Part shown: positions 6,175-42,158 of the stretch, piece after piece
How positions within the stretch are numbered: the first letter of the stretch is position 1
Layout of the letters: every line of letters starts with the position of its first letter
Assembly (NCBI RefSeq): GCF_021049245.1
Contig: NZ_CP088020.1
Coordinates: forward strand, 186,001-250,000
Reading direction: 5' to 3'
Length of the DNA stretch: 64,000 nucleotides
From: Radiobacillus kanasensis
GTDB lineage: Bacteria > Bacillota > Bacilli > Bacillales > Amphibacillaceae
The notes under the pieces: generated by a model
What the model was told of the DNA's origin: nothing
What the model saw: only the letters and a program-made list of their open reading frames with translations
Databases searched by the model: none
Translations under genes and position numbers: made by a program

Positions 6175-7227
6175 ATGAAATCCTTAAAACTCTACGGAAA
6201 AAGAGATATAAGATTTGAAGAAGCTCTAAAGCCAACTATTGAAGAGGAAGATGAAGTAGTCATTAAAGTGAAAGCAGTTGGTATTTGTGGATCAGATTTG
6301 TCCAGGTACTTAAAGCTAGGACCATATATAGAGGGAATGATATTTGGTCACGAATTCTCTGGAGAAGTCGTAGAAGTTGGATCAAATGTGGAAAATGTAA
6401 AAGTGGGTGACCGCGTAGCTGGGTGTCCAGCATTATATTGTGGAAAGTGTGAAAGCTGTAAAAAATCAGAGTATGCAAGGTGCGATAAACTAACCGTAAT
6501 AGGTGCACGACACCCAGGTGCCTACGCAGAGTATGTCAAGCTGCCTTCCGAAAATGTAGTGGTTCTTCCTGAAAATGTAGACTATGAAACAGCTGCGTTA
6601 GTTGAACCATCTGCGGTTGTTGTTCATGGATTCTATAAAATGGATATGCAGCCTGGTGATGAAGTTGCTGTTATGGGTTGTGGGAATATTGGATTACTTG
6701 CCATACAGTGGGCCAAAGTTTTCGGTGCAAAGAAGGTTTATGCGATTGACATAGATCCGAAGAAATTAGATATGGCTAAAGGGGTTGGGGCGGATGAACT
6801 TATAAATCCTAAGGAAGTTTCAGCCCATGAACAAATCTTGGGATTGACCAATGGCAGAGGAGTCGATGTAGCCATTGAATCAGCTGGATCCCCAATTACT
6901 TCTGCACAGGTACTTGCTCTTCCTAAAAAGGGAGGTCAAGTGGTCTTCTTAGGAATTCCATATGGAGATGTGAACATTGAAAGGTTTTATTTTGAAAAAG
7001 TGGTTAGAAATGAATTACAAGTAATTGGAGCATGGAATGCAGTTTCAGCACCTTTTCCAGGACCTGAATGGACAACAACTGTTCATTATATGAGTACAGG
7101 ACAAATCAATGTAAAGCCTTTAATTACGCATAGATTAAGGCTAGAGGAAGGACCAGAAACGTTTGAAAGTATCATAGAAAGAAAAGAATTTTTCGGAAAG
7201 GTTATTTTCCAACCCGAAGTAAGCTGA
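6175..7227 (+). CDS. gatD: Galactitol-1-phosphate 5-dehydrogenase-like zinc enzyme
   Basis: A 350-residue zinc MDR enzyme. The catalytic-zinc segment is ICGSDLSRYLKLG...GHEFSG, the structural cysteines are CGKCESCKKSEYARC, and the Rossmann loop is VMGCGNIGLLAIQ. The C-terminal run GAWNAVSAPFPGPEW parallels the GSWMNYSSPWPGQEW block of E. coli GatD, which oxidises galactitol-1-phosphate to tagatose-6-phosphate. A GTG at 6157 is in frame, but AAAGGATG at 6160-6168 directs initiation to ATG 6175. No tagatose-6-phosphate kinase or aldolase is seen in this window. Confidence 0.8.
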   Translation: MKSLKLYGKRDIRFEEALKPTIEEEDEVVIKVKAVGICGSDLSRYLKLGPYIEGMIFGHEFSGEVVEVGSNVENVKVGDRVAGCPALYCGKCESCKKSEYARCDKLTVIGARHPGAYAEYVKLPSENVVVLPENVDYETAALVEPSAVVVHGFYKMDMQPGDEVAVMGCGNIGLLAIQWAKVFGAKKVYAIDIDPKKLDMAKGVGADELINPKEVSAHEQILGLTNGRGVDVAIESAGSPITSAQVLALPKKGGQVVFLGIPYGDVNIERFYFEKVVRNELQVIGAWNAVSAPFPGPEWTTTVHYMSTGQINVKPLITHRLRLEEGPETFESIIERKEFFGKVIFQPEVS

Positions 7228-17938: not shown

Positions 17939-18519
17939 TGTTCAAAAAGGAGGATAAAAAGCTCAGGAGCACTTACTTTTATAAACATCCATGGATGTAA
18001 GTATAAGTGCGACTAAGGCTCTTCCTCACTCCGTTCGCAGGTCGCCAAGTCTTCTTTAATATTCAAGGCGGCGCAGCTTCGAGTACAAGCTCGTTGCTTC
18101 GGAAGCATAAACATCGCACGCAGAAAAAGTGTTTTTCTTTTTCAAGTACCGGACTTGTACAGGATGTGCTGACTTCTGCGTTGTGCACAAATGTTTTCGG
18201 TGGGGCGAGTAACCGCAGTCCCAGGACATGCACGACTTTAGCAGAAGATCCACTATTCCTTTTAGATACATGAGATGAGGAAGGCCACTTCTGCGAAGTA
18301 ACTTCCTTGCTGCCTTGCACCGAGGAATTTAACTTCCTCGAAAGTGCTAGAAGACGCAGGTGCACCGGTTTTTGAGAAGCAAGTCAACGCAGAAGTTCAA
18401 AGTGATTTTTACACTATCATAAATATAGTTTTTTGGGTGATAGTATAAGTTCAACTAAGGCTTAACCTGCGCTGTTCGGCTTGGTTTCACCAAGTTTCCT
18501 TTACCGGACTTTTTGAACA
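17939..18519. repeat. Non-coding structured element with terminal inverted repeats
   Basis: TGTTCAAAAAG at 17939-17949 is the exact inverse of CTTTTTGAACA at 18509-18519. Inside each end is a related module: a hairpin (ACTTAC...GTAAGT at 17970-18009; CACTATCA...TGATAGT near 18410-18446), then TATAAGTGCGACTAAGGCT or TATAAGTTCAACTAAGGCT. The ORFs inside have no coding character. The architecture suggests a MITE-like or IS-derived non-autonomous element common in Bacillaceae. It ends 5 bases from the stop of the Spo0M-like gene. Confidence 0.6.
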
Positions 18520-18524
18520 TCCTC

Positions 18525-18920
18525 TTATAGCGATTGTTTTTTAATTACGATTTCATCACTATCCATGCACTTTACATCATCAGAAAACACGACTTTTGTA
18601 TGAAGCGAGTATTTAACCTCTGAAGAAGTTGGTTCTAACTCTGCAGGAATCTGATAGGAGAAAGGAATTTCCTGCTGCTCCCCGGTATTAATCGTTTTGG
18701 ATGTAAGCAAAGTTTGGACGGGCTCAATAAATTCTGGTTTCTTACCGGGACATTCTCTTACGAGGTCGCATTCTAGGCGTTTTAATTTGCTGCTTACCCA
18801 ACCACCTTTTAACTCGAAAACACCATTTAAGTGGTCTCCGTGCTTTAACTCGTTTGCCTCCAGCTTTAGGTCTACTTTTGCAGATCCTACCTTCATCATA
18901 TTGAGTACTTTGTTTATCAA
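18525..18920 (-). CDS. Spo0M-like arrestin-fold protein, single domain
   Basis: 131 residues from TTG 18920, which is preceded by GAGAGGT; an in-frame ATG at 18962 lies in the terminator hairpin region and has no RBS. NKVLNMMKVGSAKVDLKLE followed by GDHLNGVFELKGGW and KYSLHTKVVF align in pattern with the N-terminal arrestin-like half of Spo0M, a sporulation-control protein of about 258 residues. The second half is missing and the structured element begins right after the stop. It lies behind a Mn-riboswitch and terminator. It may be a genuine half-size paralogue or a truncation. Confidence 0.72.
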   Translation of the reverse strand: MINKVLNMMKVGSAKVDLKLEANELKHGDHLNGVFELKGGWVSSKLKRLECDLVRECPGKKPEFIEPVQTLLTSKTINTGEQQEIPFSYQIPAELEPTSSEVKYSLHTKVVFSDDVKCMDSDEIVIKKQSL

Positions 18921-18960
18921 CGTATATGACCTCTCGTTTCTGTTTGGAATGTTAACCAAC

Positions 18961-18989
18961 AAAAAACCTTCACCAGTTCATGGTAAAGG
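18961..18989 (-). terminator. Riboswitch expression-platform terminator
   Basis: On the minus strand CCTTTACCA and TGGTGAAGG (one G-U) form a 9-bp stem with a 5-base loop followed by TTTTTTG. It lies between the yybP-ykoY aptamer and the Spo0M-like start codon. Confidence 0.8.
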
Positions 18990-19011
18990 TCATAATCTAT
19001 CCCCTCAACCG

Positions 19012-19112
19012 GTTTGGCAAAGGTCTCGCAAACAACTAAAATCGTTGCCAGTTTAGCCGGTGGTTTTACCCACGTCTTGTCGACATAACTGTTAGCTACT
19101 CCCCTTTGGAGC
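19012..19112 (-). ncRNA. yybP-ykoY (manganese) riboswitch aptamer
   Basis: The minus-strand RNA contains the hallmark 5' segment CAAAGGGGAGTAGC, the inner loop ACCGGCTAAAC, and the closing GCGAGACCTTTG, which pairs with CAAAGG to form P1. These are the most conserved blocks of the yybP-ykoY class, which senses Mn2+ and usually turns transcription on. It is followed by a terminator and then the Spo0M-like gene, an unexpected regulon member. The match was made by eye. Confidence 0.82.
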
Positions 19113-19138
19113 TTGGCTTAGTCTTATGTTGTGTCTAT

Positions 19139-19167
19139 AGAATAATATAGCTTCCTTGTAGGGTCAA
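19139..19167 (-). promoter_or_regulatory. Sigma-A promoter for riboswitch transcript
   Basis: On the minus strand TTGACC, a 17-base spacer and TATTCT lie about 30 bases before the aptamer. Confidence 0.55.
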
Positions 19168-19176
19168 CTATAATTT

Positions 19177-41960: not shown

Positions 41961-41995
41961 GTAAACATTAAGATACACATAACGTGTTTGCTTAT

Positions 41996-42091
41996 CCATG
42001 TTCCCTACGCTGGTCTCAACCAGATCAGGTTCTAAGGGTCCGTATCTTAAGGATACAATCTCAACCAGCAAACACTGGTCCCCCCACAAGT
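41996..42091 (-). ncRNA. TPP (THI-box) riboswitch
   Basis: The minus-strand RNA has the thi-box blocks in order: GGGGGGACC, GCTGGTTGAGATTG (usual CTGAGA, here GTTGAGA), ACCCTTAGAACCTGATCTGG, GAGACCAGCGTAGGGAA. These form the P1-P5 arms that grip thiamine pyrophosphate. With the following terminator it turns off the thiYXZ-type operon when TPP is abundant. Confidence 0.95.
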
Positions 42092-42158
42092 CGTTTTCTA
42101 TTTGATTGGTTAACGTTTCGTACTAACTGTGCCATAGTTTTGTTATTTTTTCAAGCTA

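Follow-up and report, generated by a model that had tools for sequence, protein, structure and literature searches.

As listed in Table 1, the minus strand of the window (the whole stretch of 64,000 nucleotides of Radiobacillus kanasensis DNA that was analysed) carries a yybP-ykoY-type aptamer followed by an intrinsic terminator, a ribosome-binding site and a gene for a half-length Spo0M-like protein, with a sigma-A-type promoter-like site upstream. This arrangement is confirmed: an earlier sequence-only reading had described an aptamer and a terminator leading into such a gene, and the parts that it named were all found, on the minus strand. The promoter that it had also named stands in part, for a site is present but is a consensus match only (score 9/12), and 4 such sites occur in 900 bases against 2.0 expected from shuffles. 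Terminator-like sites numbered 2 in the 900-base stretch scanned, versus 1.0 expected. The TTG at 18920, behind GAGAGGT, is a more likely start codon than the first in-frame TTG, at 18962.

Table 1. Features of the leader and gene in the window, in order of transcription
Feature	Position	Strand	Basis or detail
Sigma-A-type promoter-like site	19139..19167	-	TTGACC (19167-19162), 17 nt, TATTCT (19144-19139); consensus match only
yybP-ykoY (Mn2+) aptamer, 99 nt, without P2 hairpin	19015..19113	-	R2 and R1 covariance models
Segment 1, CAAAGG, 5' strand of switch helix P1	19103..19108	-	sequence
Adenosine in GTCGACA, corresponding to Mn-sensing A41 in L. lactis	19078	-	sequence position
Segment 2, CCTTTGCC, 3' strand of P1	19016..19023	-	sequence
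Segment 3, GGTTGAGG, predicted alternative partner of segment 2 (without Mn) and of segment 4 (with Mn)	19003..19010	-	folds
Intrinsic terminator, made up of segments 4 and 5 and a T tract	18961..18991	-	11-pair stem, T-rich tail; folded
Ribosome-binding site GAGAGGT	18929..18935	-	seen in sequence
Half-length Spo0M-like (single arrestin lobe) gene, 131 aa, TTG start	18525..18920	-	PF07070

The sequence blocks GGGGAGTAGC, CACCGGCT and GAGACCTTTG are all present on the minus strand, and the L1 loop (GGGGAGUAG) together with an L3 containing the Mn-sensing A and CGGC has the letters of the yybP-ykoY class as given in the consulted part of PMC6754395. The sequence-only reading had named a covariance-model score as the way to check the aptamer, and here the outcome was divided: Rfam's RF00080 stayed below its threshold, whereas an independent model, R2, scored 50.9 bits. 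R2 was made from 15 aptamers above the Rfam cut-off from other genomes, none of them Spo0M-linked, and its match, at 19111-19015 of the minus strand, was the only one in the 64-kb window up to an E-value of 10 (E = 3.8e-10, the E-values of our models being rough). A second model, R1, comprises 13 family aptamers and a hand-named structure of 26 pairs; it gave 99.1 bits, a value to be read with the window's own sequence being part of the model. Of the 26 pairs, 24 form in the window. Across the 13 leaders 96.2% of cells were paired and both partners had changed in five of the pairs; none of 500 shuffles scored as high on any of five covariation measures, and slid versions of the structure were at most 44.4% paired. 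The leaders thus have the covarying helices of the yybP-ykoY class (P1, P3.1, P3.2 and P4, with P1 as the switch helix), save that P1.2 and P4 are uninformative on covariation because they never vary. The structure of R2 covaries as well.

RF00080 found no match at this site of the window at its gathering threshold; with loose filters the score was only 11.2 bits, the cut-off being 45. We dropped it as a test of identity, since this genome's own TerC leader is also under the cut-off (30.3 bits, and no match with stricter filters), which makes the model a poor yardstick. Over the order, it matched at E ≤ 0.001 in 138 of 199 genomes and exceeded its cut-off in just 46; many yybP-ykoY members without P2 score under that cut-off. 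What sets the window's aptamer apart from the R2 members is that no P2 hairpin intervenes between AGTAGC and P3; the genome's TerC leader (L001) has none either. A strict pattern search, tried as a survey method, retrieved 4 of 159 family genomes only, as the letters of the blocks differ between genomes (CCGGTT in Terribacillus), and was replaced by the covariance models.

According to the part of PMC6754395 consulted, Mn2+ is contacted by N7 of an invariant L3 adenosine (A41 in L. lactis, A48 in Xanthomonas). Among the matches listed in our order-level survey (see below), there are 77 Spo0M-linked aptamers, and all 77 have the same L1 block, GGGGAGTAGC, and keep the adenosine within GTCG[TA]CA (GTCGTCA in 66, GTCGACA in 11). 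The L3 3' strand is TCGGC in 46, CCGGC in 27 and CCGGT in 2; the remaining 2 gave other letters, perhaps because the simple pattern hit a wrong place there. The sequence of the pocket gives little indication of a changed ligand, and Mn is the predicted one. A review (PMC7266159, in the part seen) mentions diverse yybP-linked genes that are not consistent with Mn sensing, and notes that some yybP-motif variants may have an altered specificity, which could explain this diversity. On such grounds, and given the missing P2 and low Rfam score, the aptamer might sense another divalent ion or signal and the gene would then not be a Mn target; we judge this quite unlikely, considering the unchanged adenosine and L1 (among the matches listed), the P2-less aptamer that also precedes TerC in the same genome, and the three-way-junction member of Streptococcus, which the accessible text of PMC9495176 describes as binding Mn and Ca.

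How the leader may act is suggested by its alternative pairings. In L. lactis, Mn2+ stabilises P1.1, the 3' strand of which otherwise enters the terminator (PMC11087558, part of the text), and the ykoY leader of H. halodurans has been predicted to act as an ON switch too (PMC10898510, likewise in part). In the window, five segments can be delimited (1, CAAAGG; 2, ACCUUUGCC; 3, GGUUGAGGG; 4, ACCUUUACC; 5, GGUGAAGGU plus the U tract), of which the 1:2 (P1) and 3:4 pairings are mutually exclusive with the 2:3 and 4:5 (terminator) pairings. All pairings are possible in 23 of 23 leaders (those of 20 named loci, of the window, and of L003 and L106), with median energies of -6.1 (1:2), -11.1 (2:3), -11.5 (3:4) and -11.6 (4:5) kcal/mol, against a shuffled 3:4 median of -4.2; the test is biased, because the segments were located by motif patterns, which favours pairing. 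The 3:4 energy lies below the 5% shuffle value in 22 of the 23, the exception being the window itself (-7.8 versus -8.3), where this pairing is the weakest of all. The pairing pattern suggests a Mn-ON antitermination switch. High Mn2+ would stabilise P1 and free segment 3 for segment 4; the 3:4 pairing would block the terminator and the gene would be transcribed. Without Mn2+, the 2:3 and 4:5 pairings would form and transcription would stop. The leader shares its L1 and L3 motifs, P1 switch helix and terminator platform with the yybP-ykoY leader of ykoY/meeY (TerC) in Bacillaceae, and differs from it in that the aptamer has no P2 and lies before a half-arrestin gene, not a transporter gene.

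The protein matches PF07070 (Spo0M) with 57.4 bits against a cut-off of 23, over positions 2-135 of the 213 of the profile (scanned as 132 residues from 18923), which bears out its earlier description as half-length Spo0M-like. With 131 aa it is not the two-lobe protein of about 250 aa that Spo0M is, and was classed as a half-length relative; the NCBIfam models matched none of the four half-length proteins tested. A truncation artefact was considered and rejected, as all 32 named loci give proteins of 126-138 aa (with start codons chosen by script). The nearest other database protein, from Radiobacillus deserti, is 84% identical, and an 85% identical copy occurs in one further Radiobacillus genome searched. 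The predicted structure (pLDDT 87.2, pTM 0.78) had Spo0M (5cl2) as its top PDB match (TM 0.75 on the query), followed by beta-arrestin, the N-lobe of ARRDC3, translocon-TRAP chains and VPS26, and also by unrelated beta-sandwich proteins; the modelled fold is that of the arrestin N-lobe beta-sandwich. At the N-terminus, ahead of the lobe, there is a helix of about 12 residues (modelled with low confidence at residues 4-9), and its hydrophobic moment is above that of shuffles (median 0.45 versus 0.31, 110 proteins). The protein has no membrane spans.

Its closest characterized counterpart is Spo0M of B. subtilis (PDB 5cl2), with the N-terminal lobe of which it shares 22-24% identity (profile E 8.3e-12); it differs from that protein by the lack of a second lobe (131 versus 252 aa), by its riboswitch control and by its place in the tree. 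There, a branch with a support of 100/100 and a long-branch warning separates 35 half-length proteins from the N-domains of 7 full-length Spo0M. The aptamer label requires four changes on the protein tree, so that aptamers must have been gained or lost more than once. A separate full-length Spo0M is encoded elsewhere in the genome.

The sequence-only reading would have been refuted if no related genome had the arrangement; the pair is in fact common. Among 32 named loci of close relatives, an aptamer lies upstream of the half-length gene in 20 by both models (R1, 96.2-111.9 bits; R2, 51.7-63.6 bits), 11 are without one (for one of them only 178 nt of contig are available upstream) and 1 has a remnant. 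The named genera with the pair are Halobacillus, Thalassobacillus, Sediminibacillus, Aquibacillus (1 of 4 species), Terribacillus (one record of which is named Virgibacillus sp.) and Jeotgalibacillus; for Radiobacillus, the evidence comes from the window and from the one additional genome searched. At order level, 77 of 110 half-length loci among the matches listed are preceded by an aptamer according to R2, with scores from 50.6 bits upwards, and none was counted at the other 33 (L331, at 27.1 bits, was left out of the aptamer count). These 110 loci are 30 plus a further 80 of the best-ranked matches when 397 genomes were searched with a profile, the profile (A5) having been built mostly from aptamer-linked proteins. 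Among the same matches, the aptamer is on the strand of the gene in 76 of 76 loci with a parsed ORF, at a median of 236 nt upstream of the match; L255, where an aptamer lies upstream and no ORF was parsed, belongs to the 77 and not to the 76. The named and order-level sets overlap and contain close relatives, so that these counts are not independent events. The surveys led us to reject the idea of a single odd case. The half-length protein can also exist without the aptamer, since 11 named loci (and the remnant) and 33 order-level ones have none counted. Around full-length Spo0M genes, R1, the only model used there, found an aptamer at 0 of 14 loci (with flanks of mostly 1500 bases).

Several loci showed variants of this arrangement. 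The remnant, in Aquibacillus salsiterrae (L041:2787-2868), is decayed, with a changed L1 (R1, 27.4 bits; R2, 22.0 bits), and was not counted; aptamer regulation of the half-length gene has apparently been lost in this species. In Domibacillus the aptamer is absent at this gene and present before a second half-length paralogue in 3 of 3 genomes searched (PF07070, 80 bits for two of the three), with a different leader that has, by eye, two tandem terminators. L255 has two aptamers (325-423 and 2258-2356), one of them past the half-length gene and presumably ahead of the gene that follows. Tandem RF00080 matches lie upstream of a single half-length Spo0M gene at G177:C3:427020-427105 and 427537-427616. 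In Halobacillus (L046 and L048), short open frames occur between leader and gene.

The genes that follow the pair are often those of transporters. In the named set, where the next gene was taken as the first non-overlapping ORF of at least 90 aa, terC comes next and in the same direction in 10 of the 20 aptamer loci (13-28 nt after the stop codon in nine, 301 nt in one), a CNNM/CorC gene comes next in 7 (after 150-178 nt), and 3 have neither, one of them, L048 (H. alkaliphilus), being near a contig end. Pfam confirmed two of the TerC and two of the CNNM neighbours. In the order-level set, with the next gene taken as the longest ORF that began no more than 350 nt away, terC is next in 29 of 76 aptamer-bearing versus 0 of 33 aptamer-less loci, and CNNM in 2 versus 1, among the matches listed. 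While TerC or CNNM follows in 17 of the 20 named aptamer loci, no transporter gene comes directly after the pair in the window or in R. deserti: the window's gene stands alone, and the genome's TerC is encoded elsewhere, with its own aptamer leader. TrkH-type genes appear at two loci, as a TrkH-family potassium transporter gene overlapping the start of the half-length gene in the aptamer-less B. wudalianchiensis and, by eye, as a TrkH-like gene after the half-length gene at one Domibacillus locus. A DUF1232 (YkvA-like) gene seems to follow the pair in about seven order-level loci (L279, L290, L295, L303, L310, L313 and L320, mostly by eye; a 60-residue piece of one such neighbour matched DUF1232 below the cut-off), and an EcsC-like gene does so in about three, one piece again matching below the cut-off.

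Taken over 113 aptamer loci, the next gene codes for TerC in 71, for a half-length Spo0M in 15 and for a P-type ATPase in 13; HtpX and CNNM account for 3 each, and in 8 it is something else or was not found. This tally, like the family survey, favours the Spo0M-linked subtype because R1 was built mostly from Spo0M-linked leaders. The 113 are 30 family-survey loci, 80 further places that were picked, and L001, L036 and L039; five have no ORF. The three genomes with an aptamer before htpX, which codes for an M48 membrane protease, are those of L114 and L116 (both with the aptamer near 1501-1597; a Pfam check supports HtpX at L114) and L170, two of these aptamers being of the window-like, high-scoring subtype. 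In Aquibacillus kalidii an aptamer (L237:1503-1601; R2, 75.3 bits) precedes ftsH, and in L157 and L182 one stands, by eye, before a CaCA-type cation exchanger-like gene. At L228:1501-1600, in Bacillus wudalianchiensis, the aptamer is followed by a very short basic reading frame, which we take to resemble the FbpB family, and by a secreted-looking protein.

TerC being the commonest target of these aptamers and the next gene in half of the named aptamer loci, the riboswitch could have been inherited from a terC operon, with the half-length gene as an inserted passenger that was sometimes left behind and has no role in Mn physiology; the solitary genes of Radiobacillus, Sediminibacillus and A. 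koreensis would fit such a history. We hold it to be rather unlikely, however, for the pair persists without TerC (which is next in only the 29 of 76 loci mentioned above, among the matches listed), CNNM replaces TerC in Terribacillus and Thalassobacillus, and the second Domibacillus paralogue has an aptamer within a different leader.

A link between Mn2+ and sporulation or the cytoskeleton was what the sequence-only reading had seen in a Spo0M-type target, and this part of it does not hold up well. The proteins do belong to PF07070, databases call them sporulation or sporulation-control proteins, and in B. subtilis Spo0M influences sporulation, with FtsZ and FloA co-purifying with it (PMC5325327, as far as the part seen goes). 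The half-length proteins nevertheless form their own, fully supported group in the tree and have one lobe only; a full-length Spo0M is present elsewhere, R1 found no aptamer at full-length loci (0/14), and the neighbours are often transporters, TerC and CNNM among them. The sporulation reading is weak, and Mn control of sporulation through a truncated Spo0M seems very unlikely.

We consider it likely, on balance, that at this locus a Mn2+ ON-riboswitch controls a single-lobe protein of arrestin fold that works with cation transporters. The protein is placed near Mn/Mg transport rather than sporulation because the following gene is often TerC or CNNM; judging from gene order and fold, it is more likely to assist Mn/Mg transporters from the membrane side, and to be induced when Mn is in excess, than to be a sporulation factor. 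It would serve as a membrane-side adaptor or scaffold tuning CNNM or TerC (which acts in Mn export and in the metalation of secreted proteins) under Mn excess. The ftsH and htpX genes carry a yybP-ykoY aptamer in a few relatives. Because of these regulon neighbours and of the co-purification of Spo0M with FloA and FtsZ, a Mn-controlled group for membrane and secretion quality control, with the half-length protein as its scaffold, is plausible. A more specific version, to which we give a small chance, is that the Mn-induced single-lobe arrestin binds TerC or CNNM and hands them to, or shields them from, FtsH or HtpX, as a bacterial counterpart of the arrestin-related trafficking adaptors. The alpha-arrestins of eukaryotes (ARRDC3 and TXNIP, in their N-lobes), which are adaptors in transporter trafficking, have the same N-lobe fold, and half-length genes often lie beside transporter genes. 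To our knowledge, the PY motifs and ubiquitin system of the alpha-arrestin pathway are not known from these bacteria, and a likeness in role is speculation by analogy.

Our literature searches, which did not extend to the founding papers (Dambach 2015, Price 2015), found no paper with yybP-ykoY (or yybP) and Spo0M together, and none with yybP-ykoY and arrestin or Spo0M among the matches listed. Searched together, Spo0M and manganese gave no riboswitch study, by titles; manganese riboswitch and HtpX gave nothing, and yybP-ykoY with htpX only the TerC paper and its preprint. The association of aptamer and Spo0M may have been listed earlier, and if YybP of B. subtilis is a half-length Spo0M, part of it has been visible since the motif was named. 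With the pair, the Mn riboswitch regulon gains a protein of arrestin fold, and a testable function is at hand for a large, little studied protein family of the Bacillales, named for sporulation in databases, yet pointed towards manganese by its control and its neighbours. It also offers a possible partner for TerC, whose Mn loading of secreted enzymes is only partly understood.

Three other RNA elements were detected on the minus strand of the window: a Bacillaceae-1 RNA match just downstream of the half-length gene (18156-18257, 39.6 bits), a match to the Listeria sRNA rli30 family, here outside Listeria (6424-6539, 60.9 bits against a cut-off of 41), and a TPP riboswitch (41985-42095, 70.8 bits).
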